Part shown: positions 1-40,745 of the stretch, piece by piece | How the letters are laid out: each line of letters begins with the position of its first letter | Numbering within the stretch: the first letter of the stretch is position 1 | Assembly: GCA_963920665.1 (NCBI GenBank) | Contig: OY987269.1 | Location: forward strand, 22,880,501-22,944,500 | DNA from: Straminergon stramineum | Taxonomy: Eukaryota > Streptophyta > Bryopsida > Hypnales > Calliergonaceae | Reading direction: 5' to 3' | Length of the DNA: 64,000 nt | The notes under the pieces: generated by a model | Database searches by the model: none | What the model saw: the letters and a program-made list of their open reading frames with translations, nothing else | What the model was told of the DNA's origin: nothing | Position numbers and translations under genes: made by a program

Positions 1-380
1 CATGGAATTGAGCAAGAATTTTCAACAAGCATTTTATCCTATTATTCAAATTCCTTAAAGTTGCCTAAACTAGTTGACCCCCCAATTCAATACATTATCC
101 TACAAGGTTAGGTTGACACCTAGGTATGCATGCCCCTCACCTTGCTTAGGTAAATTAACCTATGAATATTTATCCCATGATAGTTGAAATCCACCAAGTA
201 TTAAAAGGAGGCAGGTAAAATATCCTCCAATTTGAAGGAGACATTGGCTGATTTAATGCCCTACCAATTTCCTTCCGGTTCAGCATCCCTTGTTTTCAAA
301 ATGCAACCACTTTTTTCCCACTTCCACCAGCTACTGACTTTGAAGTAGCCACCATTTTTTTCCCGATCATTGACTAGCTA
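1..380. other. Intergenic, no gene seen
   Basis: AT-rich sequence without a supported reading frame or recognisable repeat. It borders a duplicated upstream fragment that starts at 381. Confidence 0.5.
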
Positions 381-656
381 GCAACATCCAAGTCTGCGAA
401 GCTCATGTATGGAAAGCATACTGCAGGCTCCTTCGCAAGAAGAAATCATCTCACTTCATGCCGACAGTTCCATTTCAACTCGAAAAGTGTCTGTCCCAGC
501 GTCAGTACAGGAACTTCAATTCACCGATGGGGATCAGGAATTCCTTTCTCGGAATAATAAGACTATTTGAGCAACTTCAGAAGATGAACTAGCTTGTCCA
601 CGCGTGTACTCTCCTGCGAAAAAGTGGGCTTACCATATATTGCCGGAGCGGGGCCC
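381..656. repeat. Duplicated upstream segment of the receptor-kinase unit
   Basis: This stretch matches 61863-62120 in the same orientation, with shared blocks such as AGCAACATCCAAGTCTG, TCATCTCACTTCATGCC and AACTTCAGAAGATGAAC. In the right-hand copy the segment lies 500-760 bases upstream of the R1 start codon. By analogy it is upstream DNA of another array member whose body would lie left of the window; that member is not visible, so this is inference. Confidence 0.75.
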
Positions 657-1233
657 CGCCGGGGTGGATCGATTGACTGACCTCCTCGCTCGTCCGTCCT
701 CCATGGGATTACTCAAACGGAAGCTTGCTGAACCCTGCAAGTCATCCGGCCTGTCCGGTTAACTACTGTAGTAAGTCTTCAACCCTTAACCCGGGCTTTC
801 GAGAAAATTCGACTGTGCTGGCTCCTTCGAATTGAAGCTGTTGACAACGGTGCTTCGGGAAAGTCACTGTACCAGTTTGAAACCCCCGACGTCGGTCCTG
901 ACTCCTGACGCCCAATTCTGCTCTTGCTCTGAATCATTCAGTCGACTGCCTGTTGAGATTCCCGGCCAGTTTCACATCATTCACCACTGCCCCTGATTCT
1001 TGGCTTTGGTCGAGTTCTTCTGGTTTGCGACTTTGGGGTTTGCGACTTCGAGTTCCGTTGGGGGAGTTCGAGTCGACTTTGAGTTTCGTTGCCATGGGAG
1101 GAAACTCGGCCCGCGGTGAGAGAAGTGAAGTCGTGGGTGAGAAGACTCACGGGTCACTGGGTGCAGTTGTGGCTATGAATTGGGAACAGGGTTTTAATTC
1201 TTGCTGTTGGTCCCACGTTGCACACCTGGTACG
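657..1233. other. Intergenic, no gene recognised
   Basis: Moderately GC-rich DNA. One open frame (953-1237, plus) has low-complexity composition, no recognisable domain and runs into the adjacent transposon terminus. I do not call it a gene. Confidence 0.5.
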
Positions 1234-1823
1234 TTAACCCCTAAAGGACCAAGTGTCCGTTCAGCGTACGCAAGAAATCTTGGGTAGGCTCCTATGAAGT
1301 CATTTTTAGTTGGATGTTCATGAAATTTGGACATAATGTCTAATTGTGTATCCCCTTCCTGAAAATCTATTTTTTTTTTCCGATTGGGTGCCCAGATCAC
1401 AAGTTATGCTGCCCTGAACTTTGTGGGCATCTCAGGCAGCTTTGGGCAGCATGTGCAGAACTCTTCCTATGATTTTAAAATTTGGCAAGTGTGTAGCTTA
1501 CATGATCCAAGATGCAAATGTCAAAAAAAATAACCCTATTTAGTGTAAGAATCTCATTCTAGAAGGAGTTAAAGTTTGGAGGCCATGTTGGGCAAGGTTG
1601 GAAAAAAACTTTTTCACCTAACTTCAAACGTTATAATCTTTCAATCCATTCGGTCAAAGTTTCTAAATTTTTTTGCACGTGTTCCCAAAGAAGTCTAGTT
1701 CAAACTTGTACAATTGAATTTTGAAAGAAAAACTGTTTTTTTCATTTTTTTTCTTGCTGCCCTAAAAAGTGGCAGTTTTTGACAATTTCTGCCCAAAATG
1801 TGCCTCAGTCCTTTACGGGTTAA
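1234..1823. mobile_element. TTAA-flanked piggyBac-like MITE, copy A
   Basis: The element starts TTAA-CCCCTAAAGGACCA and ends GTCCTTTACGGG-TTAA, so the ends are imperfect inverted repeats flanked by TTAA on both sides. It has no coding capacity. The termini match copies B-E in this window. TTAA duplication plus CCC-starting termini is the hallmark of the piggyBac superfamily; assignment rests on the ends only. Confidence 0.75.
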
Positions 1824-2647
1824 AGGTACCTTGAAACTCTCAACTTTTTGCGAAAAATTGAGTGGCCAATCTATTTGGTTTTTTGGCCCATTCAGTGTAT
1901 TACGAAGTAGTTCATAATGGCTAGGAGTGTATAGAAAATACTCCTTAGTAGCAATCATGACTGCTCATCCCTTGCCACCCAATACACTTCAGTACAATTT
2001 TTTATGCTTAATTGTATTTAAAAAATTGATAATTGTACAATAATCGTAATTTGTATTGGAAGATTTACTTAATCATATACCCTTTTTTGCTTCTAAAGTT
2101 TTTATGGCTTTCTTTTGCCTCTTCATGAAAACAATAACCTTTGTTTTATCATACATCACTTTCTAAAATGCACAAGTGATACACTCAAGGATGTTTTGGT
2201 TTAATTAAAAATAATCGCCCCTTTGGGAGGCATTTAGTAAAAAATAAATAACCTAAGTATATGCCAAGGGTATCTAGTTGTGGGTATGAAATAATAGATA
2301 TATTATAAAAAAAATTCGAAAATTTGGATTCTAGAGGCTATTCTAAGAAATTTGTAAAATATTATCTAAACAAAAATTTTAGGAGCTTTTTTGCTTTATA
2401 ACAGTAGCCCATTTAAAAAAAAATTCGGAATAAAATGAACCAAATCTTTGTGTGCACCATATTTATAAGTTTTTTGTACTAAACCTTTTTGCAAATCATA
2501 AATTAGACATGGAACATTGAAGGAAGTGAAATACTAAACAATAGCATTAGATTTTAAAAATTAAATATATAATAGCGATTTTGAAAGTAAGATAAAATAT
2601 AATAGTATTTTTTATCCCTACTAAGTTCTATATACAATTAGGTTTAT
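1824..2647. other. AT-rich intergenic DNA
   Basis: No supported reading frame, RNA gene or repeat was recognised here. Confidence 0.5.
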
Positions 2648-3039
2648 TTAACCCTTGAGGGTCTAGTAGGGACCATAGACATGGTCTTATATTTTACTCT
2701 TAGAATACAAAGTATGTACTAAAATATGCCGAGCTATTGAATTGAAAATTCAACAACTAACATCTTTCATTTGGAAAACCAATTTCAAATTTTTGTTTTT
2801 GCAAAATGTGACTTTTAAAAATCTACCTAGATTGCCGAGTTCCAAAAAAAAGTAACATGTCAAGCCATAACTTTTGACTTATATTTCCAAATGTCATGAA
2901 TTTTAGTGCATATGAAAGATATTCCTCGTCCCCACCTTATATAAAAACTTGGGCCAAAAATATGGAAACTTCTAGTCACACATACCTACCCAAAATTGCT
3001 ATGTAGCCAAAAAATGCATGCTAGTCCTTTAGGAGTTAA
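2648..3039. mobile_element. TTAA-flanked piggyBac-like MITE, copy B
   Basis: Starts TTAA-CCCTTGAGGGTC and ends TAGTCCTTTAGGAG-TTAA. The right half is clearly homologous to the right half of copy C: shared blocks include CATAACTTTTGACT, ATTTCCAAATGTCATGAA, GATATTCCTCGTCCCCACCT and AAAATTGCTATGTAGCCAAA. Non-coding. Confidence 0.78.
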
Positions 3040-3164
3040 AAAATGCATTGCAATTCTTTTATAAAATAATCAATCTAATTATAGAGATATAAGTCAAAAT
3101 AAAAATCTACAACTACTAATCTTGTAAGAACTCCACATTACTTCTCTAAGTTGCCTACAATGAG

Positions 3165-3956
3165 GGCCACTTCACACTATGGCCGTCCAAGTCAAGAGGC
3201 CGTGGGATTGAGTGGCCAAACTTTGGTGAGAGTCCAAGGAAATGAGCAATAAATAGGCCAAAAAAACTAGGAATTGGAGCCTTCGGCTAGCTATAGTGTG
3301 AAGCCTCCAAAGGCCAAGGTCCAAAGTCGAAGCCCAAAGTCCAAACCTATTCCATTTTTTTGACTTCTAATCCATCCATTTCTGAAATTTTCACTGAATC
3401 GTCACCCATGTGACTATTTTTTCAAGCAAAAGGTTTAAAAACATGAGAAAGGAGTCAAAAATGGCCTTGGAAAAATAATTACAGCACATGCTCTCATCAT
3501 TAAACAAGGAATATGAAGGATATAAATGGAATAAAAAGGTGGCATTAAACATTGAAGGGAAGTAGGTTCATAGAATGCCAAGAATCCCCATTGTAATGGT
3601 GGAGACTAGAGTTCAAACCCCAATGGGGACACAAATAAACAAATAAACAAGGGAGGGCATCCTACCTAGTTCTACAAAAACAGTCTGATCTAATGGTAGG
3701 GATTCTTTCAGATTCTGAAAAAAACTTGACGGACTCTCAATTAGAGTTTGGGTCGGCCAGAAATGGAAACCCAATCTCTAATTGAGAGTCCGTCACCATG
3801 TAGGCATTTGGTTGCCATTTAGGCAGATAAGTGGGTGACGGACTTTGGATTGTGCCTCCTTGTGTGAAGGCTCGAGAGGCCGAACTCTTGGGTTTCTGCA
3901 ATCTCATTAGCTGAAATCGATGGACTCTAGACATTGTGCCGTAGTGTGAAGTGGCC
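3165..3956. mobile_element. TIR element with internal hairpins, superfamily unresolved
   Basis: The left end GGCCACTTCACACTATGGC and the reverse complement of the right end (GGCCACTTCACACTACGGC) match at 18 of 19 positions, defining a 792-bp element. No clean target duplication is visible. It has no transposase. Inside it, the motif GACGGACT and its complement recur and form hairpins (3728-3794 and an adjacent AGTCCGTCACC / GGTGACGGACT pair). Just outside its left end, 3060-3160 resembles intron DNA in R1 and R2 near 56700-56820 and 31030-31140. Confidence 0.7.
3728..3794. repeat. 67-nt hairpin
   Basis: A perfect 19-bp stem (GACGGACTCTCAATTAGAG against its complement at 3776-3794) is followed by a second short pairing, TTGGGT with ACCCAA, around a small loop. 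It lies inside the TIR element at 3165-3956. Confidence 0.8.
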
Positions 3957-3989
3957 TTGAGTCAAGACTCTCTTGTAGAGGACTATAGG

Positions 3990-4713
3990 TTAACCCCTAA
4001 AGTTCTATGACTATGTTTTCACTGAAAATGCTCCAAAACTATCATTTTTAGTACAAGTGCCAAATTTTTGAAAAAAAACATTTTTAGACACATGTAACCA
4101 TAGGATCTTGTAGTATACTTGGGAGTGTGTGGTAAAAATTTCAGAAATTTGCACTACATGGATTGCAAGATATAAGCATTTAAATTCAATGAAATAATTT
4201 TTTGGGCCCTACAAAAAACAAGGCAGCAGCACTTCACAAGCTCACTTTTCTAAGAAAAAATGTCCAAAATGGTGGTGCTTCTTTGGATTTTTTTTCCAAA
4301 AATATTGAAAATCGAGTAAGATAAAGGACTTTGAAGTTTATTTTAGAGTAGAGAATCCATATCTGCCCACAAACAAAAAATCCTCATAACTTTTGACTCC
4401 TTGATCCAAATTAAATGATTCAAAGCTTTCTAAGTATACATAACTTTAGAAAACCAATTTCAAATTTCAGTTTTGGAAAACAGTGATTTTTTTTAATCTG
4501 CCCGGATGGCCCATTTACAAAAAAAGCAACATATTAGGCCATAACTTTTGACTCATATTTCCAAATGTCATGAAATTTAGCGCATCTAAAAGATATTCCT
4601 CGTCCCCACCTTCTCTAAATATTTGGGTTAAAAATATGAAAATCTCCAACCACAAGTACCTGCCCAAAATTGCTATGTAGCCAAAAAACGCAGGTTGGTC
4701 CTTTAGGGGTTAA
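3990..4713. mobile_element. TTAA-flanked piggyBac-like MITE, copy C
   Basis: Starts TTAA-CCCCTAAAGTTC and ends TTGGTCCTTTAGGGG-TTAA. The left half resembles copy D (the stretch with ACATGTAACCATAGGATCTT) and the right half matches copy B. It is non-coding and 724 bp long. Its right TTAA abuts the R3 pseudogene at the same relative position where R1 and R2 show a degenerate TTAA element end. Confidence 0.82.
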
Positions 4714-9718: not shown

Positions 9719-9880
9719 AAGGGTTGCTATTATGTGAGCCTAGAATCATGAGCTCATGAGCCTAGAAGACTATACACCTATGTTAAAGGTGTCTATATTA
9801 TAGAAGCCTTCTATGATTATAGTGTAACTAGGTTGTAGATACCAATATTATAGGTATTTATGATATATGCACCTTTAATG

Positions 9881-9890
9881 GTTGTAAGAT
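9881..9890. repeat. 10-bp target-site duplication, left copy
   Basis: GTTGTAAGAT here is repeated exactly at 25447-25456, directly adjacent to the right end of the large element. A duplication of 9-11 bp is characteristic of Mutator-like elements. Confidence 0.8.
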
Positions 9891-9990
9891 CAGGGTTGCT
9901 AGCACATGAGCCTGTGAGTGTGAGCGTGTGAGCCTATGAGTGGGAATTTGTTTGGTTTAAAAAAGGGCTTAGGGACCTATGACCGTGGGT
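9891..9990. repeat. Left terminal/subterminal inverted repeat of the giant element
   Basis: Contains GCTAGC (9898-9903), repeated GAGCCT/GTGAG units, and ACCTATGACCGTG (9975-9987). The same features occur inverted at 25262-25446, though with a spacer of different length. Confidence 0.7.
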
Positions 9991-10538
9991 GTAGGTAATA
10001 ATTGGTTTAGGAACATGTGAGTTCACTTATCCAAAATTTAAGGCATGTACAAACATGGATTGTGAAAGTATAAAGGAAATAGAACGCAGAAGGGTTTGTT
10101 AGTAGCCATAAAACACACAAATCCACTCATAATGAAAATCCACACATAATAGTTGACTCATGAGATATGTCAATCTCATGAGTCTAAGTCACTGTAGACT
10201 CAGTCGCGGAAACCTTGGTGCTAGATGACTCTGAAGTCTCTCCTCCCTCGGATGCTGACCTATCTATATACTTTAGAACATTTAGAGCATATGTATCTTT
10301 TTTGCGTTTAGGGTAAGAACAACCAAACTCTGCAAAATCCAATGCTATCTGCTCGGCATACACTGGAAGATGAAATGGCTTCTCTGGACTGAGGACAAGT
10401 CTTTCAATCTTCTTTGACGCATTTGCTAGAATCAATCGTTGACATCTGCAACACAAATGATATAAAATTAGCTTCATAAAACATTGAAATGAGTATGCAA
10501 ATAATTCATACTTAGAATTAAAAGAAATGTAGACTTAC

Positions 10539-11562
10539 TTACGAGGTCTAATCTTCCTAGTGAACTTCCGAGACACTACAATCATTGCGTCTGGATCTTG
10601 GGAAGATTCAACCATTGGTGGCGGTTTTGTTGTCACCACAACCTCAATGCTCTTCTTCATAGGTAGGAGGAGGGCATCAAAAATTTCCTTGTCCTCCTCC
10701 AATGCGACAATATGGCGCCCTGTGCCACGACATGCCGTAATAGAAGCCCCTGCAATAACCAATTTACAAATCATCACTTGATTGACTTATTACATACTAA
10801 AAATTTGAATACACAATCTTTGAATTAAAAACCTACATGTAGATGCTGTGCAGTCAAGAACCACATCTCCTTCCTCAGTTGTTCTTTCAATGAGGAACTG
10901 GATGAACCTTGCATCTTTTTCGCGAGCCCCTTGCCATGGAATTAAGGTTGCCTCATTGATGAACATTGTCTCCTTTGTGGTATAGTTCATCAACATATCG
11001 TGCCTTCTTAGGTCTACTTTGGCCTTTTGCATTGCCTTTGTGCACTTCAAAATGAATTTGGACTTCCCTTTCTCACCACGCTCTTTCACCAAGAGGGTGA
11101 TTCCGAACTTCAAAGTCTGCATGTGTGCCACCGATATACATCAAAAGAATATAACCATTAACATTGGCAATTGCCACTCAAACAATGACATATTCACTAA
11201 ATTCGTACCGTGGCTGCATTGTCCATGGCTGAGGTCAGATACATAAGGTTCACTCCCAACCACTCAAACTTCTTCACGAAGGAGGGATATGTCTCACACA
11301 ATCCTTGGATCACACCCTTTGAAGTTGCACAGTATGAATGAAATACAATCATGCAGCCATGGTCCTGCAAATGCATATCTGCAAAAAGAAACGCCATTTG
11401 AATGGCCTCGTACTCCAAGTCAAAGTTCCATGCTGGAATATGAGTAAGTGGAAAAGACACTTCTGGGATGGGTAGATTCTCTTGGCAATCGAATAATATG
11501 AGGTCCGTTAATCCCACCTGGCTCACTTTACCATCGAGCGTGCGCACCTTTGTTGCCGACAA
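10539..11562 (-). CDS. Methyltransferase exons (motif IV then motif I)
   Basis: Exons 11562-11209, 11116-10837 and 10749-10539. Motif IV normally reads DPPY or similar; here it is D-C-Q-E followed by NLP. Motif I reads LDCTAST, then after the splice WAS-ITACRGTGRHIVALEED; the usual Gly after AST is Trp because the last exon base is T. GRHIVALEED matches the GR-x-x-x-G-x-E-x-D block that follows motif I. Both motifs look degenerate, so this copy may be inactive. The start of 10749-10539 in phase with 10837 supports the splice. Confidence 0.68.
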
Positions 11563-12600
11563 CTACAAACAACAATCCTCCCCAAAATCAATTATTCCCA
11601 CTTAAAACATTGATTTCATTGATCAATATAAATAATTGCTGAAGATTAATATTCCATTTGTAAAACATTTACCTTCTTCAAAAAAATTTTCACCTCCACG
11701 TAGCATGGTGCCTTGTTGGTTTGAATGTTCTCCATGATGTCCACAATGGAGACGTTGAGGATCAATTCCTCCGAATTCACATCGTCATCATCACCAATGA
11801 CTATGACTTGGGTACCCTACGTAATCATGTCGTCTGTTAGTTTAGGAAGCACCGCCTTCCTTTTTAGTCTACCACGAGATCCGACTTGCATTTCAGAGTT
11901 CTGATCCATTGTAGAAGACGTAGGAACTTGGCCACCTCCTTCAACCTTCTTCTTGCCTTTGCCCTTGCCTTTGCCCTCCTCTTTCTCCTCCTTCTCTGCC
12001 AACTTCAATAGCCGCTCTGCTTCTTTTTTCTCCTTCAAGATGAGAATTTCTTTCTCTTTGCCTCTTTCCTCTTGTCAGCATCAGCCCTTCTAGCCAGGGC
12101 CTTCCTCTTTGCCGCATCACTGAGTCCTGCAAATTCATCCACCACCAAGTCGATAACACCAAGGCCTTCGAAGGACTTTCGGAACTCCACCTCTGATGGA
12201 TGAGTGAAGAGGATATGGCAGTCCAAGTACCACCCTCCACCACTAAAGTGAGCAGTTGTGAAAGTCCGAAGCTGACTGGAAGAATACATGCAGTCTGCCG
12301 AACTACGGTCCAACCAAGTGGATAAGAAAGGTGGAAGATCCTCTTGTGAGATTGCACCCTTTGCAAGAAGCTCAAGTTTGAAGTAACTACATTCCAAAAT
12401 AAAATAATCAAAATATAGAAAATTTGAAGGAAGTAACAAATAGAGAAAAATACACATTAAACTATGCTTGCTCAAAAACAAAGATGATGGATTAAACATT
12501 ACTATTTACAAATCCACTCCTGCAATGAATGACCTCAACAACACTCATGAACAACTTCCACCACATCTTGGCCCCCAAAATAGAAAATGGTAAGACATTA

Positions 12601-12697
12601 GGATGGAAATAAGGGGTACTATAAGGTACCTCAAAAACCTAAGTCGAATCTAACTAAGCTTATGAAGGTACCTCAAAGTACCCTCCATTTCAATCCA
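12601..12697. repeat. Palindromic ~100-bp repeat, copy 1
   Basis: Arms GGATGGAAATAAGGGGTACT and, reversed, TGGATTGAAATGGAGGGTAC; inner GGTACC on both sides. It lies in the intron between methyltransferase-gene exons 13054-12750 and 12386-11673. It is the most diverged of the five copies. Confidence 0.75.
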
Positions 12698-14096
12698 TTA
12701 CATCATTTCAAAGAATATTATTTTTTAATGAATCCATCTACCAACTAACCATTTGACACAACTTGAAGGCATTTTTATCGCAATAGAAAAATGAATGGAA
12801 CTTAGGGTATGAACGAAGCGGAAGAGAACTCTTTGAACCACCTGCATTGATCCCTCAAAATTCAAGAATGAATCACTCTTCCTAAAATAGTTTGCACCTT
12901 TGAGAGCGGGTCCAAATCCTTGATCCCAAATCTTTCGCCTCCAACCTTCCACATACTCTACTAAATACTCCGGTTGTTGAGGAACTTCATATTTGACTGT
13001 GATGTTGTCCTTTTGAACCACTGTATCAAAATACTCTATGGCTGCATCTTCAATCTATAACAACACAATCAATTAAAATTTCATCCCTACAATTGATGAG
13101 TAAATCTATGAACAGGGGTATACACTAATAAATGAAACATGCAACATTGACTAAATTCAAGAATACAAGAACTTAAAACTTACCCCTGCGTACCAAACAC
13201 ATTTGTTTAAGAAAGGCCCCAACTTGTCCTCTGATACAGGCCTAGCGGGAAACTTCCTAGCGTCACGGGATGGCATGGAAGAATTCCACCACTTGAGGAA
13301 CTTCATCTTGTGGAAGGCTGTAGTATTGCAAGTAGCAATCATCTGTAGTTTCTCAAGAGTCATCTCAGGCGTTTCATTAGAGCTCCGGTGTTTCTCCACC
13401 TACACCAATGACAAGGTCTTAGTTCATACCAAATGTCAATATACAAATAATTTAGACATGCTAATTAGTATCTATAATAGAACCCACCTCTTCAAGAAAT
13501 CCTAGCCCATGACCAGGATTAGCCACCGCCAACAGCTTCATCATCTTAACATATAATTTGGCATTCTTTTCTTTTGCTCCAACCCTCATGGCATCTACCA
13601 CTCCCTGGTCACTCTTCTCCTCAAATGTTGTGACCTCATTGTACTTTCGAGCCACCGCATCTGCTGCCTGTGCAATTTTTTGCTGCAAAAGTTCAATGTT
13701 GTTTGCATTTCAAAAAAAATAAAATTTTGAGATCAAGTAATATTAAATTATAACTTAGAAACACAAAATCAAGTAATAGCTAACTCACCCGAAATACAAA
13801 TGATGTGAAAACTTCGGCAGGCATTGAATACCAAGTCTTCCTACCCTGTTGAGCACTGGACCGCTTCACCTCAGATAGCCTCAACATCTCATTAAATTTT
13901 TGCAAGGGTAAAAGGCCATATTTCTGAACACGATATAGAGTATATACCAAATTGGTCTTCATGTGCGAGTCCTCGGTAGATCTGCATGTCATGAACATAG
14001 AATCGATTAAGACTTCCTAATATGTGGCATATAACAAGTTCCAAGACAAAGGAAAAATATACAACTTTCAAATTAATATGGAATTAGAGAACTCAC

Positions 14097-14764
14097 TTGT
14101 TGATGTCGTGCATTACTTGCATTACCAACTCAATCCTCCCCTTTGTGTCCAACAGAATACAATCTACTGCACAGTGAAAGGTTGGATTTGACGATTGGAC
14201 CCTAGAGATGTGGTTCATCCATGCCTGCAATCGGTGATTACCGTCACAAACAAAGAATTTCAAGTTTCTCAAGAACTTCAATGGCCCCTCTGAATCCACA
14301 TAGTTGTTGAAGATGTTGTTCTCTTTCTTCCATAATGAATCCCATCCATTCATATCATCTTCTGTAACCTCTGAAGTCTCTCCAGCCTCATTGGTAGTGG
14401 ACACATAAAAAACAGCTACCTCCTCACGATATCCGAAAACAAATTCCGTCTCAAGCTTCTTCACGTTACATGAAAGGGTGGGCCTAACCATGGGCATTGC
14501 AACAAGTCTACATAAAGGAATGCAGAGACGAAATAAGTTATCAGGCTTCATCCTCAAACCAGAGATTGTTGCCACAAAGTCAACTTCTTGGAGTCGACGG
14601 AGTTCATCCTCCAACAACTCCTTCTCCTCCTCCCCCTCATCAATATCCACATCCATGAAGCTCACTGGTTCTTCTTCTTCTTCAATCTCTGGTTGAGTCT
14701 CATCGGTTTCTAGAGTTTGAATGATTCTCTCATCTTGAGTTCCAATCATTGGAGTCTCATCTAT
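14097..14764 (-). CDS. ParB-like exon of the methyltransferase gene
   Basis: This exon opens with an acidic stretch (many Glu/Asp, about residues 12-50 of the exon) and then carries FFVCDGNHRLQAWM at about 14220-14262. The G-N-H-R-L-x-A pattern is the signature of ParB/Spo0J-type domains, which in prokaryotes bind DNA or hydrolyse CTP and are often fused to methylases. It ends in phase 2 (HDINK codon split) at GTGAGT and joins the next exon at 13981 in frame. Confidence 0.72.
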
Positions 14765-16055
14765 CTGCAAAGGCAGTGGCAATGAAATTTAGGTCTCAAA
14801 GAAGAAATACACTACATAGAGCATAAAATTCTGTATCCAATCTCAAATGCAATCATAAATTCATTTCTTTGAATGACACATGAATGATATAGTGGAATGA
14901 TAGAAGTATTGAATTGCTTAGAAAGTAAACACCAACCCTATAAATGGCTATTACATACAAAAAGTACACATATAAATGTAATAGCCATGAAAACATATGA
15001 AGTCAATACCCTATGGAATCAACATCTACACTACAGTTTGAATCATAGCTGAGGTGAATTAGAACCACCTCATGCTTGGGCACAACAGAACTACAAGCAC
15101 AATCACAAAACTCTTCAACCTTATTACTACACTCAGAGAGTGAAGAACGAATACTAGAGTTGTACTCTGTGTTAGAGCTCTCTGGTGAGAAGACGGGCTG
15201 CTTTCGCTTGAGGTTTCTCAAAACACTTAAGCGACTAACATTTTTTGGTTTCACGTAGTCACTTGTGCGGTCACATGCATCCAATACGTCATTGGAGCTT
15301 ACCAAGTGAGTATCATTTCGTGCACCCACATTAGGGTCAGGCAACCCATGAACTCCGTGATGAATTGGTGACATCGGGAATGGAGTAATTATTGCATCCG
15401 GGATTGGGTTTAGGGCTGTAGGCATTGTTGGTGAAGATCCATCGCCCACATAACCAACAATCAAACGATCCTGCAAATATTAATTCCAAAATATTAGTTC
15501 CATTAGCCTTAAGAGACAATGTAAAATAATCTTAGACAAATACAAAATGTAATCAATAAAAACATTCAAGCATTTATGTCCAATTCCTTAACATATCATT
15601 TATATATAGGTTGAATATATAATATCATTAGAATTTTAAGAAAAAGATCAATTCTTGTTAACATGATGGAGCAAAGATAAATTCTTTAGCATCCAAATTA
15701 GAAATTTCCATGCATAGATGTTATAGAATTCACCAAAATGAACTCTATAAAATTCCATTAGTCCTCAGATGAATTAGTATTATCTAGGTGAAAAAAGATA
15801 ATCCTCTGAGATCATTTGGTCTGAAAATATAAAATTAGAATCAATGTCAATCAACAAGATAAAAAATTAAACAAGCCAAAAATTCAAAACAAGTGGGCAC
15901 TAGAATCCTTGAAGTTGTTCAAGAACTCAAATGCATTTATAGTCATCATGACAAGCCAAATCATTGTGGATTTGTGCTCTTCTTGCACAATAAAGGAGAG
16001 TCATCAAAACCCCTAAATTAGCAACATGGACAAAAGGCAAAGAATTATTCAAATT

Positions 16056-16152
16056 GGGACAGAAAAAAGGGGTACTTAGAGGTACCCTGAGATCCTTAGT
16101 CGGATCCGACTAAAGATCTGAGGGCACCTTGGGGTACCCCATGTTTCCATCC
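16056..16152. repeat. Palindromic ~100-bp repeat, copy 2
   Basis: Arms carry GGGGTAC and, reversed, GGGGTACC, with the central palindrome TTAGTCGGATCCGACTAA. It lies in the long first intron of the ParB-methyltransferase gene. Confidence 0.82.
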
Positions 16153-16345
16153 ACTATTGGTGACTATGAGCAAGAATGCAAAGTATGGTCTACAAAGATA
16201 ATTTAAGCCCCCACAACACAACGGACCGAGCTGAGTTTCATAGCCATGTTTGTTGGCATATGCAAACTCAACATGTCATGGATTTTGCTCACTTTGAGCA
16301 TTCATGCGGAAATTGAGGCATAATAAAAACATTATAGACAAACAA

Positions 16346-16443
16346 AGGACGGAAAAATGGGGTACCGCCAAACACCTCATGATCATCAGTCAGGTCTGAC
16401 TAAAGATCTGGAGATGCTTGGCGGTACCCCATTTTTCTGTCCT
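16346..16443. repeat. Palindromic ~100-bp repeat, copy 3
   Basis: Nearly perfect arms: AGGACGGAAAAATGGGGTAC on the left and TACCCCATTTTTCTGTCCT on the right. The centre is AGTCAGGTCTGACTA. Same intron as copies 2 and 4. Confidence 0.85.
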
Positions 16444-16814
16444 CGTACAATTCATTTGCAGAATTTTCGTAGATCTTGGAAAATTCAACTTGAGAAGGTA
16501 CTATTTTAATTAACACATTATAGCTATACTTTGATCTTAGGAGGTACTAGTCCAATTGTCTCACTGTCTGGAAGATTCGAGCTAAGGGTCGAGCTAAAGA
16601 AGTACTAGTCTACTTGTCTGGGCAATTTGAGCTAAAGTTTGATCTCAAATAAGAATGGTTCAGCTGCCCGAGGTTCAGGAGCTGAAGTTTTAGCTCACCA
16701 ACCAAAGGTCGGAGCTTCACAACAGTCATCCACAGCACTCTGTTTGTCACCAGCACTCCATTCATCACCAGTTGCATAGTCATTCAACAAGAATTCAGAC
16801 AATCCTCTCTCTCC

Positions 16815-16914
16815 AGGGACGGAATTTCGGGGTACCTTGAGGGTCTCCCCGAATGTCAGTCGGGTCCGACAGATGATCCTCAGATGCCTCCAGGTACCTC
16901 GAAATTTCTTCCCC
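16815..16914. repeat. Palindromic ~100-bp repeat, copy 4
   Basis: Arms GGGACGGAATTTCGGGGTAC and, reversed, GGGGAAGAAATTTCGAGGTAC; centre CAGTCGGGTCCGACAG. Same intron as copies 2 and 3. Confidence 0.8.
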
Positions 16915-17492
16915 AAAGAGATTTTCAAAAAAATTTGTTGCCGTTCTTTACCAAATAGCGACCCAATCCTTTGAATCACTAAGGGAGCTCGTAGAAAGGA
17001 TTCCCGGGAATCCCAATGCTGGAGGCGAAATAGTAAGGTGACATTCTTCGCATGGTCTCTATCAGTCTCAAATGATCGAAAATTGACTCCAGAACGCAAG
17101 TTTTAGCAATAGAAAACGAAACCGATCGAAGTAGCTCGTTTTTGACCCTATCAAGCAGCGGCTCAAAAATCGACAACGACTACTACCCACGGGTCGCAAA
17201 GAAAGAAGAAAACGTGAACAAGGTTGTCCATACTGCTCGTCCACACGTAGAGAAGCTGGTAACTCAAACCACCCTAACGTCTTGCATTTTAAAATGCACA
17301 TCACAACTCAATCATTCGGCTCCGCAGCCAGCCGTGACTGAAGACCCAAGAATCCGGTTCAGAACACCCGATCAAAGTCTACCAGTTGAAGAAGCTCACC
17401 TCGGATCCTTTCATCACAGCAGGTTGCTTCGGGATCTCCTTCAAACCAGCAGTTCTAGAATCGACAGGTTTCTTGCTCCGAGTGTTCCTCAT

Positions 17493-19564
17493 TTTGTCAC
17501 CCGGCTCCTCACGCGAAACGAAGCCAACTACCTGTATACAATCACGCCAAATCAGAACAGAGCTTCCAGCAATAGAGCCAGTAGCGAGGAAGAGATAAAA
17601 TTTGAATCCGTAATTTTCCACCTCGCCCATCACTTCTGGATCTTCGAGCAGAACCTCTCCAGTTGGCCCCAAGTTTCAGCAACCTGCCTGGCTGCAAAAG
17701 ATTCTATAAAGTAACCACTAGTCACCTGCGGGAGTTAATGCCATGCCCGTGTATTTTGGATCTCGGTGGGGGAACCTGTCCAGTTGTCCCCAGCTTCGAG
17801 AAATTGGGCTGGCTACGAGAAAAAGGGAGAAGATGACAAACAAATCAATGCAAAAATTGTCTTATCGGCATCAATTTTGGAGCTCAGTGGGAGAATGGAT
17901 CGAGTTGTACCAAGACTCCCGAGAATGCCGAGGTATCTGGACCCCACACATTGGAATTTTCTCCAAAATTTCTGAAGAGTTTGCGGCAACAAAGAAGATT
18001 CTCAGAGCCTGGAATGCCAACACACTTTGAGGAACTATTGTTCAAATCTTCAGATCAAGTAATAAATTCTAGCTTCCATATATATGTGTTCTTGTTTTAA
18101 ACAAATGGCATATTTCCTTTGATAACAAAAACAGTACATCAAAGAAGGAGGACAAGCCTCCGGCCAAAATGTTTTAATGGTTTTTAACTTTTTTAAACAG
18201 CAAGTAGGAGAATAAAAGAAACATCGAAGAGCCAACCATTGGAAATTGATGAAGAGTACTCCCACCCACCATGCAAGACTAGTAGTGAGCTAGAGTGTAT
18301 AGACAATCTAGGAAAATCAATGATCAATTGCACAAAGAGATCAATTAGAAGACTATTAGAAGGCATCTATCCTACGTGTTTTATAGTAATGACTCTAAGA
18401 CCCAAGATTTAGTGATTTTATGTGCCATCAAAATCGAGGACAATATGCATAAATGCGTAACTTCATCCCAAAACTTGTTGTCCAATTTTTATCTCATTAT
18501 CATATTGTTTGATCCTTAACTGTCTTAACCATGGCATGAATTTCGAATATTCGAAGGAGACAAAATCTTGTCAAATTTAAGTTTCCCCTATTATATGTTT
18601 TGAACTACATTATATTGTATTTATTTGAAGAAGTTAATTAATCAAGCTGGCTACATACTTGACATTTTTATCCCTAATGATACAAGCACAGATGATTATT
18701 TCCTAGAACTGGGGTAGCAATTACTCCTCCTATTTCACAACCCTAGTTTACTTTATGAGATCAACAAACATTGAGAAGAATTATTGATAGTGAATAATTA
18801 CCATGCAAGGTTAATTCAAATGCCTATTGATTTCTATAATTTTAGTGGCAATTTAAAGACAATTAAGTGGAAACTTCGCATGTCTCAATATTTGACATTA
18901 TCATTTAGATCCCTCTTTGTGAAAGTGAAAGGACAACACCAATTTCACAATTTTTTAAATACTCCTCTTCTAAGCCTAGAAGATTATTTTTCTATGGACC
19001 AAATTGATATTATCTCATTTTATAGATCTTTTAGGATAGACTTGGACTTGAACACTACTATTTTCTATCATTTCTGAATTTTTTATGTTATTTAAAATAT
19101 TCTATAGTTGCAGTAGAATTTTGAATCACACAACTCCAAGAATTTGTCTACTTGCAATTGTTGTTAGAATCACAGGATACAAATTTCATAGTGAGCCTCT
19201 TACAATACAAAACAATTCTATATTCTTTCACTTCATTAAATCTTTTTCCAATACATTAAACTCTTTATGTATTCTATAGAAGCACTGAGGGTCTTTAGAA
19301 TGGAGGAGGGTTGTTTGAGAACAATTTCCTTTCCTTGCTTTCTAACTAAGAATTTCATAATATAAAGTCTCTCCTTCAATTGAAGTTCATCATCCTATCC
19401 TATAATAATATCTGATAAGTAGTGACAAGACACCACAATACACTACTTGAAAATGTACATCAGGCATGAATATAATTGCAATTACCAAAAGACTAAAACA
19501 CGAAGAAATATGCAACATCTATAAATGCAAGGAATAATGGAGAATGGTTCTTGCAAGAATGTAG
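17493..19564. other. Region between the two divergent genes, left half
   Basis: Probably the 5' flank of the methyltransferase gene and filler DNA of the giant element. Plus-strand frames at 17743-18030, 18784-19077 and 19085-19279 have no recognisable domain; the last two are very AT-rich. Nothing else is recognised. Confidence 0.45.
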
Positions 19565-20026
19565 TCATGAATCGAGTCTTACAGTGTCCAAGATTTCCTC
19601 CGTCTCTTGACCTCTTCTAGTGGTTTTGTTTTCGGACGGCTCCATCACAACATTCATGGAATGTCCTGCAACATCCTCCTCGCCTCCACTACAAGCTCCT
19701 GAATAGCATAGGGATTTCCGAAGCTCGCCCATTGTTGACAAACCTCTCTTAGAAGCAACTTTCTTCCCTCGAGTCATCCTCGCACTCCTAAGTTTGTGAC
19801 AAGATGAAAAGTATAGAGAACTACTCTTCTTGTGTTTCTTTGTATGCTTCGGATCACCAAATGGAATGCTACGGTTCTCTAACAGCAAGAAGGTATGGGA
19901 CAACACATCTATCGTAGCGCTCTCAAATGCAAATGAAAAGTTCCAGAGAGCACATTGGAAAGACTTCTGAACAACAAAGTGTCTTCTACTTATATGCCCA
20001 AATGAACTAGTCAGTCGACCTACCAA
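19565..20026 (-). CDS. Unrecognised 153-codon minus-strand ORF
   Basis: I do not recognise this frame. It ends at 19565. The second half, from an internal Met (MTRGKK...), is rich in Lys, Arg, Glu and Ser and would suit a small basic, disordered protein; the first half looks less protein-like. It sits between the ParB-methyltransferase and transposase genes of the giant element, so it could be a third cargo gene, an exon, or chance. Confidence 0.25.
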   Translation of the reverse strand: MVGRLTSSFGHISRRHFVVQKSFQCALWNFSFAFESATIDVLSHTFLLLENRSIPFGDPKHTKKHKKSSSLYFSSCHKLRSARMTRGKKVASKRGLSTMGELRKSLCYSGACSGGEEDVAGHSMNVVMEPSENKTTRRGQETEEILDTVRLDS

Positions 20027-20397
20027 GTGTTTAAAAAATTAGGGTGGCAACTGACGCCGTTATTAGGAAATGATGACAAAGATAGTTATTAATGTGTTTT
20101 AGGTGTTGTCAGTATTTAAGGTTTACCATTGATGTCGTAGACTAGGCTACTCGGGCACGCCACAATGAGGTATTTATGACTGTGAAAGGTGAAGACGTTT
20201 TAAAAGAGCTTCCTATATTTATGCTAAAAAAGCCTATTTAATGCAGATATTGGTTCAATTGTCACATTTACTTCATTGGCACACCAAAGTAACAGATCCT
20301 TCCTTAACTGGTATTTATGTGGAAGAAGTTAAATATACACGAAAGATATGATTATTGACATTGCCACCACAAGCATTTACATATGAACTAGAAAAAG

Positions 20398-23300
20398 GCC
20401 TTCATTAAAGCTAGGGGTGGAGGCTTGAAATCAATACCCATTTTAGATGGTGGAAGGGAAATTTTCAAATTGGATGATACTAAGTTCTTCCAATATTCAC
20501 TATAAAAAAAAATGATATAGTACTTCATCAAGTTCAATTTGTCTGCAACACACATTGAGAACAAGTTTCCAGTAGTCTCCTTACTTGATTTCTCCGTTAT
20601 TTTGAACATGGCTTGCATTCAAGTAGATGGTCACGAGGTCCCGCTTGTATTTCCGATAGATGAAGGAGGATGAGCTAGAGTACTAAGTCACCTACTTCAT
20701 GTCCGTTTCAAATTTGTAGAATCTTCTATCTATGTTGAGGAAGAGGCGAAGTTAGAATTGGGTGAGTTGCAGCAATCTATTCTGGTTGTAAAGTCTATGG
20801 AAGAGGAAGGGCATTGTTGGTACCTACCTAATGGAAACTATAGAGCTTACAGCCTTCCTTTATCTATGTTTGCTTCATCAACGGAGATTTTAAGTAGACA
20901 ATCAGATGCTTCAACAATTGATATGCCCTATATCACACACGTAGTTTTTCCTAGCCCACCTCATGAGGTTTTACCAATCCTTCCTCGATATGAAATTCTG
21001 CGAGCAGTGAAGATTGAGAAACTAGATCCTATCATAGAGTTGTCTAGCGAATTGGAAGGAGAGCCCCTTCAATTGACACCAGAGAAGCAACAAAATTATA
21101 TGCAAACTACGTTGGGTGAATATCCTTTTGTGAATTCAGTATGTAGCACTCCATTGAATAGTCGTGTTCAATCCGTGTCCTCTCGACCTCCGTTGCCTAC
21201 ATATCCTGTTGATGGCTCTAGTATAATAGAGTGTTTGAAGAGACTAGGTAGTATACACCGCTCTAGGAACGAATTGTCAACAATGGATCTAAATGCCGTG
21301 AAACACTATCGAGTGTAGTATCTTCCACCACTTTTCAATGGAGATGTGATATTTGAGTTGCCTCCATGTCGATCATCATCAGTAGCGAGGAATTTGGAAG
21401 GAATGGACAAGCGATACGACGAACACCTGTGGTGCAAGTTGGTGACGACAAACATTCATAACTCTGACAACTTGAAGTTCCGTAAGTCGTACTATATTGG
21501 TCATCTTGCTTGTAAAAATCCAGAGTGTGATTTTTTGAAGAGGGCTTCTAGACGCAATGAAACAGAGTGGATTGGTTATACATGCTTTCCCTTTATAGTA
21601 GGGGATAGCACTCCCAAAGATTGTACTCTAGTTTGCAAGGTTTGTAAGAAGACTCCTTCCTGCTTTAGTACATGCAATGCTAGGATATACTACACCTATA
21701 GTAGCAATCCAAAAATGAGTAGGGCTGCAATTCACTTTGGAGATCATAGTCACCCTATTGCTAAAGGCATATATAGAGATTCTACAGAAGAAATCTGTGG
21801 ACTCATTGCAGAGCAAGTGGCCAAAACACCAACAGCCACTAACTCTGCTATTGCTCTCTATGCGAGCAAAGATTTTCTAACCAACTACCTATTCCACAAT
21901 GGAGAAGGAGAGAAGGTGATGTTGAAAGGGGACAACTTGGAGGAGGTTATGGACTGCTTTCAATATTTGAGCAGTCCAAATATACGGAATGTGATTTCTT
22001 CTTTCTGTTCAAACAACCATGGAGGTGTCATTGACAACATCATGACCATGAAGAAAGAATCAAAATTTGAATACATACACGACAGTGTCTTCCCAGGACA
22101 AGGCAAAGAGAAGGTGTACATTTTCAAGATGCTCACTGAAGGTCCTGGAAGTGGAGTGGACTTGGTTAACCACATGCAATCTGGAGGTGATCTGTAGAAT
22201 GCGTGGATAATGTTTGACCACGTGAAGCGTGTGAAGGAGTGGACCACGATGGCTTGCCACGTGTATGATCCTCAATATAAAAAGGTGATGATTATTTCAA
22301 CATGCGATATGCAATCAAAAGACACAGAGATCCAAATTCAGTTTTCGAGGTACTTGAATGCTGTGATGTCACGACATGGAATAGATCATCCCAACTTCAA
22401 AGGCTTCATGGCTGATAGCGCTATGGCCAATTGGAATGTTGTTCGTATTGTTTACAGTAGTGGTTCTGCCAATGACAAAATGGAAAATCGTGAAAGGACT
22501 TGTTTGTTGCATTGGACTACTTCTCTTCACAAACACATGCACAAGCATATTAAAGAAGGATTCCAACAACAACATAATACATTGTGCAAGCAATACAAAG
22601 ATTCGAAGACTATGGAGGAGGCGGAGACACATTATCTCGCAATACGGTCATGGTGGTTGTCATCTGGAGCTGCCAATGAAGAAGCACTTCATCACTTGGA
22701 TCATTGGTTGGCATTCTATCATTTTTGGTATCGACAATGGGGAGGCTTTATGCAAATGGTAAGTGAATATCTCATTTCTAATTTTCAATTTCCTAAGTGG
22801 TATTCATATAGAAGATCTACATTCTATGAGAGAGTTATGTGCCCCTATATGTTTGTACATATAAATAGATCTAATTTATTTCCATGAATTTTTGGAGGTA
22901 CGAAAAATGGGGGTACTATGAGACAACACCAAAACATTAGTTGGATCCGACTAATGTTTTAGCAGTGCCTCATGGTACCACCATTTTTAGTACCTACAAG
23001 AAAGAAATGAAAATTGAAGGCAAAGTTCTGCAAAATGCGTACTTCAAATTATCATGAAATTGAGTATTTCTTCAATTGCTCCTTTCTAAATTCAGAAGTA
23101 ATGGTATATTTTTATATTTATTTCAATTATACTCTCTTCTATGTTATGTACAATACACTAGCATTCAATCAATTCAGTTTACAAATATAATTGGCTATGA
23201 GGTATGTAATTTTAAATGCAAATTCATATATCACTTATTGTTTATAAATTTGGAGGATTTGAGTTTGGAGGAGATGGCAGACATGCCTTCATGCAATTTG

Positions 23301-24644
23301 TCAAAAACTGTCCATAACAAGTGGCTTCAAATGTCGGGAAACCGAGGGAACAATTTGTTTGATGCCACATGTGACAACAATATTCGTGCTTGGATGCAAA
23401 TGACAAACTACCGTGCATATCTGAGAGGCCACACATTTGGATCTGGTCCATCAAAGGGGGAGTTGAAGTTGAGAGCTGCAAGGCAAAGCGGAGACCCCAA
23501 GAAAATGGCTAAGGCCCTAAACACATTACTTGGAGCCGAAAGGATTGGAACCCGAATACCACATTTGGAGGGAGAAGAAATTTTTGGAAGCACAAAGAGG
23601 AAATTGGACGTACCTATTGGTGATGCTAGAGACTCACACCGACTGGACAAGCTTAATTTTTCTCAACCTTGTGTTCGAACACGATCCACAACAACTTCAA
23701 CAGAGTCTACGCAGGGCAAAGGAAAACTGGCTAAGGTGACCCTTTCCCAACATGTCACAGTTGCATTTGAAAGTGACTGTGACACGTCAAAGTGGCACAT
23801 AGCGAGGATCAGCCACAAATCAAATGCAAAATGTCAAGCTCAACAACGCGGCTCAAATATCAAGTGCACCACCAAAATTGCAAGGGGACAAAAGGGATCC
23901 CCATCTCCTACCTATTGCGGGAGAAAAGAAGATTATGGGAGTAAACGAGAGGTGGTGGCAGACTTTTGGTTCTGTTGGGATGATATTGAAAGATGTGTGA
24001 AAGGTAACAAGAGAAAATGGGTCATTTATTGGCCAAAGGTACCAGAGGTTTGGCCTGTTCTAACCGGAACTAGTCTTAGTCGAGAAGAGACTTTGTTGCT
24101 ACAACATGCGGGCTTCCGTCTCCAAGAGCAACCTACATTGTCTCCACGTCGCCTCTTCAACATGTCAAAGATTTTCAAGAGTGTTCTATATGACCAACAA
24201 CCACCCTCAAATCCAAATGCATACCCAACGGTTAGGAACAATCGAACCATACAAAGAATTACAAATGCCCCATCTACAGAACAGCAAAACAAGTGGGAAA
24301 GTGCAGGAAACATTAAAGGACAAATCCTTGGAGTAACATAGTTTCCTTTTCCAGGCCTAGGTGCAATTGTGTCATTGGAGACAGGGATAGACTATAACAA
24401 AAATATGTATCGAGTTACAGTGGGTATGTTCCCCGCATGCACAAGCCCGGATTTCGTGAACATGTCTGTTTCTCCTATTGGAGGTCATCATCAGTATGTG
24501 AATTGCAAGCACCTATACTACTTGTATCGCTACTTTTGCAAAATAGACATCCATGATGACAAATTCATTCATGCACCAAGTTATAGCTTCAATGAGTTGA
24601 AGCTACTTCTAGTTTGGGCAGGAATCATTAGAGTTTCAGAATAG
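20398..24644 (+). pseudogene. Mutator-like (MULE) transposase relic with GCM-type zinc finger and SWIM end
   Basis: Exon 1 (about 20398-22758) keeps one frame apart from stops at 20503, 20518, 20671, 21316 and 22195. Exon 2 (23271-24644) joins in phase 0 (GTAAGT donor, AG acceptor) and has one stop at 24339. In order: an N-terminal region of unknown function; a GCM/WRKY-type zinc finger (CKNPEC at about 21511, CKVC, HFGDHSHP at about 21733); a DDE-type core with CDMQ and FMADSAMANW (about 22402) followed by a C..HW motif; a Ser/Lys-rich linker; and a SWIM-like end (PACTSPDF ... NCKHLYYL, about 24435-24525) in which the second Cys of C-x-C is Ser. This domain order is that of MULE transposases. 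It runs outward from the methyltransferase gene. No intact product is expected. Confidence 0.75.
22894..22997. repeat. Palindromic ~100-bp repeat, copy 5
   Basis: Arms GGAGGTACGAAAAATGGGGG and, reversed, GTAGGTACTAAAAATGGTGG; centre TTAGTTGGATCCGACTAA. It lies in the intron between the two transposase exons. Confidence 0.82.
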
Positions 24645-25261
24645 GCACAAACACATTTATCTGTGTACCTCACTCGTATTGCCTTCATTCACATATATTA
24701 CGATTGAAATGATTTGAAACTTATGGACTTCAAATTGATAATGCATTTATGAAATAGGGAAAGATATGTCATTAATCAACTATTTTGCAATTAGTTCATA
24801 TACATGACTGAAATGTACCATCCTAATCTTTATTTTAGTAAGACATATATGAATATGTAATTTTTTTCTTTCTTCTTTTTCCCAGAGCTTTCCCATTTTT
24901 AAAACTTCTTCATATGCTTTCTAATTCCAATGTTTTCGCATTTGTTTCAAGGTTCTTTTTATCGTAGTTTCTTCTTGGTTCCCTTTCCCCCTTTTTTTTC
25001 TTCTCCCTTCTTTTTTTCTTTCCCCATTTTTTTCTTTCCCCATTTTTTTTCTTTTCCCCATTTTTTTTCCTTCCCTATTTTTTTTCTTTTGTCGAGTTTC
25101 ATGACATTTATCTAGCATACTTGCAAAGTTTGGCATATTTTCTATTTTAGTTATTGAACTAAGTGCTGAAACTTTTCAACAAAGTTTTAAGTTCTTTTCC
25201 CATAGTAATGAACAATTTCACGACAATTAAAACAAATTGCACAATCCACGGTTATAGGGGA
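24645..25261. other. Non-coding, with polypyrimidine tandem repeat
   Basis: AT-rich 3' flank of the transposase gene. The part 24955-25095 is a run of imperfect 16-18 bp units of the type TTTCCCCATTTTTTTC, at least four times over. Short frames read from it are low complexity and not genes. Confidence 0.65.
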
Positions 25262-25446
25262 CACGGTCATAGGTCACAATATTTACTATAAATAGGAAGT
25301 TTTCTTCTATTTTAGGAAAAAAGATGAAAAATAAAATTGGTGGGCCATAAACCGCCCCCAAAAAAATTGGGGGGGCTCTAGGCTCATAAACTCTACGCTC
25401 ACAGCTCACAAGCTCACAGCTCCAAGCTCGCACGCTAGCGTTGTTG
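25262..25446. repeat. Right terminal/subterminal inverted repeat of the giant element
   Basis: Carries, inverted relative to the left end, ACCTATGACCGTG (25262-25274), a cluster of GCTCACA/GAGC units (25380-25433) and GCTAGC (25434-25439), ending 7 bases later at the target duplication. Confidence 0.7.
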
Positions 25447-25456
25447 GTTGTAAGAT
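25447..25456. repeat. 10-bp target-site duplication, right copy
   Basis: GTTGTAAGAT, identical to 9881-9890. Confidence 0.8.
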
Positions 25457-25532
25457 ATCTACTTATATATATGCTCAAGGTTCACATGCTTGCATTTCTA
25501 TACTCACACACTAGCATCATTGCCATACTCTC

Positions 25533-39844: not shown

Positions 39845-40745
39845 ATGGCTACATCAACCTCTTCTGTTGCTACATCTACCACAGTCCTGGTGGTCACTAC
39901 TACCGTTGAATCACCATGGCTTCAGCCTCTTCTTTTTCCACAACTTGCAGCTGATGGGAGTAACTATTTATTATGGGCGAAAACTGCAAAAGCACATATA
40001 TTTGCGGAGCAATTATCAGAGTGCATTTCTTTTGACCAATCCCCTATTGTAAGTGCCTCTGTTACTACCGCCATTTCTTGGAAAACTTTACTTTTGCTTT
40101 GTCGTCATCTTGTTCCTTCTCTACAGCATTAGTATTTGAAACTAGAACAACCAAATGAGCTTTGGCAGAAGCTCAAATCTCGCTTTGATCACCAGAAAAC
40201 AATCTTTCTTCCGAGAGCCCTTCATGATTGGACTCATTTACGAGTGTTGGATTTTCCAACAATTGTTGCTTTCAATAATGAATTGTATTGCATTATATCT
40301 CAACTGAGATTATGTGGTCAATCCATTACCGAACAAGAAATGATCGAGAAAACTCTCTCAACATTTCCACCTGTATCTGTTGTACTTGCACAGCAGTATA
40401 GAAATATGAAATTTGACAATCACTCAGATCTCATGTCTCTGTTACTTCTTGCTGAAAAGCAAAACGAACCCCTCTTGTGAAATGCAGAGGCTCGTCCTAT
40501 TGGAACTACGGTTCCTGAGTCTCATGTTGCCAAGGTTTCTAATTCTAAACCTAAGGCACACAAATATAGAAAATATCGCAACAAGCACTCGGGTAGCTAT
40601 AGTCGTGACAACCAACCAACACAGCGGAGAAATACTACTTCTTCTACTAACAACCATGGTAAGCGTCCGTCAGAGACGCGTTCTTGCCACAAATGTGGTA
40701 GAGTGGGCCATCTAGCAAATGCTTGTCGGACATCAAACTATTTTG
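39845..40745 (+). pseudogene. copia gag with CCHC zinc knuckle
   Basis: One frame from the ATG at 39845, with stops at 40130 (TAG) and 40478 (TGA). It contains the gag pattern ADGSNYLLWAKTAKAHI, then LWQKLKSRF, and the knuckle CHKCGRVGHLANAC at about 40684-40725. Gag packages the element RNA in virus-like particles. The stops rule out an intact product. Confidence 0.85.

Follow-up and report, generated by a model that had tools for sequence, protein, structure and literature searches.

What kind of element occupies positions 9891 to 25446 of this stretch of moss DNA, and what does the gene on its left side, with its ParB-like and methyltransferase-derived domains, do for it? The window, i.e. 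the whole 64,000-nucleotide stretch of Straminergon stramineum DNA analysed here (contig OY987269.1, positions 22,880,501 to 22,944,500 of the forward strand), had been read in an earlier note as holding a Mutator-like transposon with a DNA methyltransferase gene as cargo. The interval is a relic copy of a multi-copy transposon. It is probably a dead member of a large Mutator-like family with two genes, of which gene 1 would be the transposase and gene 2, the left gene, would encode a ParB-type DNA binder or clamp and not an enzyme. Our results suggest that gene 2 holds or shields the element's own DNA instead of methylating it. The element is delimited by the following features, all in window coordinates:

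9891..25446, strand not applicable: complete transposon copy, 15,556 bp, defined by its ends and duplication and by the same ends in other copies
9881..9890, plus strand: left target-site duplication GTTGTAAGAT, exact, 10 bp
25447..25456, plus strand: right target-site duplication GTTGTAAGAT, exact, 10 bp
9891..9935, plus strand: left end CAGGGTTGCTAGC with TGAGC repeats, the same end as in other copies
25402..25446, minus strand: right end, inverted, CAACAACGCTAGC with TGAGC repeats
9974..9987, plus strand: subterminal motif GACCTATGACCGTG, 14 bp, read from the sequence
25262..25275, minus strand: exact inverted copy of the 14-bp subterminal motif GACCTATGACCGTG, read from the sequence

On the top strand CAGGGTTGCTAGC opens the element at 9891 and GCTAGCGTTGTTG closes it at 25446. 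The flanks are identical over 12 bp, beyond the 10 bp of GTTGTAAGAT, because the final two bases of the element (TG) recur in the left flank. The terminal inverted repeats are short and imperfect and are accompanied by the subterminal motifs. Their similarity score in the window copy is equalled by 27 of 300 random interior pairs, and in five other complete copies by 1, 2, 4, 29 and 32 of 300 interior pairs, i.e. it does not clearly exceed the interior pairs in three of the six copies. As the inverted similarity of the ends is weak on its own, the case for the element rests on the recurrence of its ends.

This recurrence was followed in the 326-Mb assembly that holds the window. The left-end 200 bp gave 40 scored matches from 205 candidates, and for ten other copies 20 kb were read around each left end. 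Exact duplications of 9-10 bp flank six of the eleven copies (the window copy and five others; 10 bp in five, 9 bp in one), and these six copies measure 15,427-15,875 bp. The duplications differ in sequence: GTTGTAAGAT in the window, GTTGTAAGG in the copy c4 (the 9-bp case), and ATCATAGGGC, GTTTCAATTC, TTCAATGGAA and AAGTTCAAAT. The target sites flanking the window copy and c4 have eight letters in common, which may reflect a target preference or related flanks. No exact duplication was found in the other five of the eleven copies (c10, c2a, c11, c8 and c9); candidates in c9 had two mismatches and were rejected. Could the true boundaries lie elsewhere, or could ends and repeat have arisen by chance? 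Outer motifs at 9719 and 25522 do look like the element's own ends. The other copies, however, start and stop at bases matching 9891 and 25446, with exact duplications in five of the ten, and the outer pair has its own flanking repeat (8 of 10 letters), as would an older short element into which the transposon has inserted. The recurrence of the ends rules out chance, and together with the outer pair's own repeat it rules out the outer motifs as element ends; we regard a misplaced or accidental boundary as hardly credible.

The older element that encloses the transposon is a short relative. Its left-type end lies at 9719, and its right-type end closes at 25522. It comprises 9719-9890 and 25457-25522, together 238 bp including one inner copy of the duplication. 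Its flanks CCATAATATC and CCATACTCTC are alike at 8 of 10 positions, a level at which the left flank is matched at 45 of 63,990 window positions.

The two genes inside the element are divergent, the left gene on the minus strand (15470-10184) and the transposase on the plus strand (20608-24644). The left gene was modelled from exon A to exon K:

10184..15470, minus strand: left gene, ParB-like plus methyltransferase-derived protein, exons A-K, disrupted in exon G (frameshift near 12045, stop near 11818)
15012..15470, minus strand: exon A
14097..14764, minus strand: exon B, ParB/sulfiredoxin-like domain with CDGNHR
13789..13981, minus strand: exon C
13488..13682, minus strand: exon D
13184..13399, minus strand: exon E
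12842..13054, minus strand: exon F, which in the model does not join exon G in phase
11694..12385, minus strand: exon G, Lys/Glu-rich, broken in the window copy
11209..11562, minus strand: exon H, methyltransferase-derived domain, with FDCQEN and not DPPY at the presumed motif IV position
10837..11116, minus strand: exon I, ending in a degenerate motif I (LDCTAST)
10539..10749, minus strand: exon J, ASITACRGTGRHIVALEED
10184..10445, minus strand: exon K with the stop codon

Exon G is the only part of the window's left gene that is broken, by the frameshift and the stop just listed. All other copies aligned at this stop, with the exception of c10, have Gln or His in its place, which rules out an intron or splice site behind it. 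A read-through model of the window protein has 1248 amino acids, and the gene is conserved between copies that are about 60% identical. The left gene lies directly inside the end, on the minus strand, in all ten other copies, with many exons broken and several only partly matched (exon E is unmatched in c2a); the copies that were read retain the order of its exons. The transposase follows at a similar distance and in the same orientation in six of the ten (c1b, c4, c2b, c1a, c2c and c8).

Genome-wide searches extend this arrangement beyond the copies that were read. Exon B gave 813 candidates and exon H 696; 150 of each were scored and all 150 of each matched, as did all 60 of the transposase candidates that were scored (1310 candidates, query P0001). 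Exon H lies divergently at 6.6-11.8 kb from 40 of the best 60 transposase matches, the other orientation occurring once within 16 kb; random placement gave a mean of 0.29 and a maximum of 3 (1000 runs). Exon B lies within 20 kb of 21 of the best 60 transposase matches, 15 of these being divergent, where random placement gave a divergent mean of 0.28 and a maximum of 3 (2000 runs). Since the exon and transposase lists contain best-scored matches only, these pairing counts are lower bounds. Two top transposase loci (L038 and L039) had no exon B among the matches listed, and both carry it divergently when read. The two divergent genes are a recurrent module. The records of one transposase relative (P0043) and one exon-B protein (P0095) both carry the figure 583,271 for the longest contig, which suggests that the two share a contig.

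With these results the structural part of the earlier note stands. Its ends at 9891 and 25446 and the exact 10-bp repeat are confirmed to the base, and the left gene, which it took for element cargo, recurs in the genome with the same termini and mostly in the same orientation. The search it proposed for copies with the same genes and 8-11-bp duplications found exact duplications of 9-10 bp in five of ten, and the termini occur with both genes elsewhere in this genome, the opposite of the case it had named as fatal to its reading. Of its inverted ends with matching subterminal motifs, the 14-bp motif holds as an exact inversion, and the similarity of the ends taken alone does not carry the claim.

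Both genes are under purifying selection. For the left gene the Nei-Gojobori ratio of nonsynonymous to synonymous divergence (dN/dS), computed on exons B-F and H-K with A and G left out, is 0.16-0.19 when the window copy, c1b and c4 are compared with c2c (dS 0.44-0.45), and 0.12-0.13 against c8, where dS is near saturation (1.7-1.8). The transposase yields 0.10-0.12 against c8 (dS 1.1). Close copies give 0.2-0.7 for both genes, the pattern expected of decaying copies. The two halves of the element are discordant in dS: window and c1b differ by 0.13 in the left gene and 0.30 in the transposase, c1b and c2c by 0.44 and 0.08, respectively, which points to exchange between copies.

These data also bear on whether the left gene is a host gene captured passively, or whether the two genes are merely unrelated neighbours. 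Pack-MULEs capture genes in plants, and some copies do lack one of the two genes; Pack-MULE gene capture is also mentioned in the available text of PMC12477816. Against capture stand the exon B and exon H candidates, which matched wherever scored, the constant orientation and spacing, the exon order that is kept and the long-term purifying selection. Passive capture is contradicted by this selection together with the divergent pairing, and we consider it very improbable.

Does the left gene encode an active methyltransferase? Its second domain, by sequence comparison, descends from an N6/N4 DNA methyltransferase: two PHROG methyltransferase models match at E 6.4e-7 and 2.1e-5, with five of six copies matched, and a sequence search of the PDB with this part finds DpnA at E 0.11. 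A PDB profile search places DpnA (0.63) below two leukocidin rows (0.085), which are unrelated. The Pfam N6_N4_Mtase model PF01555 gives 16.1 bits, short of its cut-off of 26.7, with one of six copies reaching E 0.058. Motif IV of N6/N4 methyltransferases reads (D/N/S)PP(Y/F/W) and motif I, which binds S-adenosylmethionine (SAM), reads DxFxGxG. The catalytic DPPY is absent from all 30 copies read of the 696 exon H candidates, its position being derived from the DpnA alignment and the order of the motifs; at one further locus, L034, no exon H was found. The altered motif at this position, [DNH]-[CY]-x-E-N, is itself conserved. Motif I is DC[TS]A[ST]T or similar, as against DPFxGSG, in all 17 copies in which exon I extends as far as the motif; its first Gly is absent in all 17, and the second falls at a splice junction, which was worked out for the window copy only and gives Trp. 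With DPPY missing and motif I degenerate, DNA methyltransferase is probably wrong as a description of function. The domain seems to be without methyltransferase chemistry, and the idea of the earlier note that the cargo is a working enzyme marking element DNA is not supported.

An active N6-adenine/N4-cytosine methyltransferase that protects the element from silencing by marking its DNA nevertheless has arguments in its favour. The methyltransferase fold is recognisable in part, and exons H-J are under purifying selection (dN/dS 0.18-0.23 in the 8 pairs computed). The two-domain plan is that of the Ectocarpus Sola1-1 protein, which in its authors' proposal binds the element and modifies it epigenetically (available passages of PMC12477816). 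Set against the loss of both motifs and the Pfam score below cut-off, we judge this activity unlikely, and less likely than a non-enzymatic ParB-type binder.

The assignment of the first domain starts from exon B. Exons B and C together found 124 relatives in the protein database; the whole spliced protein found no match there, in a search whose length range likely shut out single-exon open reading frames. A CDGNHR-type motif, which we take to be the G-x-x-R nucleotide-binding box, was found by a loose scan in 106 of the best 120 of these 124 relatives and had no match in the other 14. In the fold test exon B fell within the ParB/sulfiredoxin superfamily, and its domain is accordingly a predicted ParB/sulfiredoxin-like fold. 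Weak matches of single members were obtained to DndB (0.032, Pfam) and to DGQHR/DndB (about 0.02, NCBIfam, chance level), and a PDB sequence search with this exon gave weak matches to unrelated proteins only. Viral contigs scanned with exon B contained no relative.

The transposase consists of two exons:

20608..22758, plus strand: transposase exon 1, with a zinc-binding-like N-terminus, the first two catalytic Asp and CxxH; stops at 20671, 21316 and 22195
23256..24644, plus strand: transposase exon 2, with the catalytic Glu position (Lys, 23304-23306) and a degenerate SWIM finger; stop at 24339

Mutator-like elements (MULEs) encode a zinc domain, an RNase H-like core related to IS256 and a SWIM finger, and their transposase signature is a D/D/E triad with C..H between the second D and the E. 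The window gene is a relic of such a plan, with its four in-frame stops, the Glu replaced by Lys and one SWIM Cys lost; both exons are open in c4. Its 52 protein relatives (in the best, 75% identity across 56% of the query) conserve the catalytic pattern FDH...GFMAD...RTCLFHW...NLAE. Both D, the C and the H are invariant in the 14 of these 52 that were aligned, and the E is kept in all four aligned relatives reaching that position (P0002 and P0049-P0051) and in the contig L001. Among the copies, c4, c1b, c2b, c2c, c8 and c2a have the E, and the window copy and c1a have K. The SWIM pattern CxC..CxH is intact in c4, c1a, c2b, c2c, c8 and c2a and broken in the window copy and c1b. Pfam SWIM matches relative P0049 (22.8 bits, cut-off 19.6); P0050 is below the cut-off (11.9), and no match was obtained for P0002 or for P0001 and P0018, both of which end before the finger. 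With the structure model of P0049 only ISCth4, which we take to be an IS256-family transposase, is matched at E<=0.001, by two of its chains; among the weaker alignments, retroviral integrase cores fall on residues 427-517 and zinc domains of the WRKY and GCM types on the N-terminus. An RNase H core is the predicted fold, and duplication length, D/D/E with C..H, SWIM finger and weak structural matches provisionally make the transposase Mutator-like.

The transposase alignment found no relative in the viral contigs scanned and one in a scan of genome contigs. This is L001 (positions 1-4101), filed under a Synechococcales metagenome-assembled genome, with an open two-exon transposase in 4.1 kb; it is most likely eukaryotic contamination.

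Several results weigh against a Mutator-like family whose second gene encodes a ParB-type binder. Pfam MULE PF10551 matched neither the window transposase reading frames (E up to 1) nor five relatives (E up to 10), so that the Mutator-like label is provisional and the MULE-type transposase relic of the earlier note stands on its catalytic pattern, SWIM finger, duplication length and weak structural matches. The P0049 model is poor (mean predicted local distance difference test score 51), and its match to ISCth4 has TM-scores of 0.12 and 0.30 with a root-mean-square deviation of 22. On the side of the ParB-like domain, none of 34 aligned members matches a Pfam ParB model at E<=1, Foldseek with the structure model gave nothing at E<=0.001 (best 0.10), and all Z values in the structural comparison are below 8. 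An unusual active site, and not a dead one, is a possible reading of the conserved [DNH]-[CY]-x-E-N. None of the 18 copies read has a left gene open in every exon. Three of the ten copies (c10, c11 and c9) have no transposase inside the element within the 20 kb read, c11 having a 42-residue transposase fragment beyond its left end; in c2a the left gene is in place with a diverged transposase on the opposite strand, an arrangement read as nested or rearranged, and six of the 21 exon B neighbours of the transposase are not divergent.

How might the two genes work together? Gene 1, a DDE transposase with zinc finger, RNase H-like core and SWIM, would move the element, presumably by cut and paste, leaving the 9-10-bp duplications. 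Gene 2 would join a ParB-like nucleotide- and DNA-binding domain to a former methyltransferase domain without DPPY and without the glycine-rich SAM loop. Its product may load sequence-specifically on DNA of its own element, for which the subterminal sequences at the two ends, the TGAGC repeats and the GACCTATGACCGTG motif, are candidate binding sites, and as a binder or clamp it could keep the element expressed or aid the pairing of its ends. VirB is kin of ParB. It offsets H-NS silencing with cytidine triphosphate as ligand, according to the available part of PMC10653881, and VANC, the accessory anti-silencing protein of Arabidopsis VANDAL, binds tandem repeats in non-coding regions (abstract of PMC10398659). 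By analogy with VANC and VirB an anti-silencing role of gene 2 is suggested. A more specific version, in which the former methyltransferase is now a catalytically dead but conserved DNA reader and a plasmid-style ParB clamp spreads from the subterminal repeats to keep chromatin open, is put forward as a tentative proposal.

ParB relatives also bridge DNA, and the main rival to an anti-silencing factor is that gene 2 encodes a second subunit of the transposition machinery, acting in end binding and synapsis. The divergent two-gene layout, the subterminal motifs common to both ends and the conservation of the gene between such diverged copies agree with this, a possibility that we hold to be real although doubtful. 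Our results do not separate it from anti-silencing, and the three copies that have the left gene and no transposase nearby fit mobilisation in trans equally well.

Apart from these genes, hairpin inserts with GGTACC-like ends and a TTAGTCGGATCCGACTAA-type core lie at 12639, 16096, 16386 and 22937. The inserts at 12639 and 22937 have counterparts at the corresponding positions of c1b and c4, and the former has them in c10 and c11 as well; the insert at 16096 is found again at about the same position in c2b, c1a and c2c. Outside the element, Copia-like retrotransposon reading frames (40481-44384, plus strand) and receptor-kinase-like reading frames (54125-55398, minus strand) were recognised by eye, the latter probably a host gene; both speak for a plant as host.

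Among known systems, MULEs have 8-11-bp duplications, a SWIM finger in many groups and additional reading frames, some of them antisense, and VANDALs are listed among them (PMC6446971, in the passages available). The moss element shares with MULEs carrying a second reading frame the duplication length, the SWIM finger and the extra gene; it differs in that the group-table passages of that paper describe no ParB/methyltransferase frame, the word methyltransferase not occurring in its main text. VANDAL with VANC is the model, by analogy and on description only, for the favoured working of gene 2, a non-enzymatic binder, whereas the abstract of PMC10398659 mentions neither a ParB nor a methyltransferase domain. 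Retrotransposons of dinoflagellates and charophytes have incorporated cytosine methyltransferases and are likewise mobile elements carrying a DNA methyltransferase gene, but they are retrotransposons with C5 enzymes, and no ParB domain is mentioned in the available text of PMC5890265. The counterpart with both domains is Sola1-1_Ec32 of Ectocarpus, 21.5 kb, with a divergent accessory gene that combines ParB-like and N4/N6 DNA methyltransferase domains (1104 amino acids there, 1248 here); similar proteins are cited for transposons of green and red algae (PMC12477816, available passages). Compared by description only, it has a Sola-1 transposase in a brown alga where the moss element has a Mutator-like one in a plant, and its protein is presented as a methyltransferase, a function whose canonical catalytic motifs the moss protein lacks. 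Among the open-licence PMC papers listed by our searches, PMC12477816 was the one found to describe a ParB-methyltransferase in a transposon, and other descriptions may exist; since a divergent accessory gene of this sort is in print there, the kind is already known. The earlier note knew of no plant MULE of this make-up; the idea of a transposon-borne ParB-methyltransferase has been published for algae, in another superfamily. As far as our searches show, what is new relative to the open-licence literature is this carrier, the decayed catalytic site under selection and the size of the family. The ParB-methyltransferase accessory gene of algal transposons also occurs on the Mutator-like elements of this moss, in whose genome at least 150 of its exon matches were scored. 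Selection maintains it even though its methyltransferase site has been lost. This argues against self-methylation as the general explanation for such genes, and a transposon-encoded ParB-type DNA clamp becomes a testable alternative.

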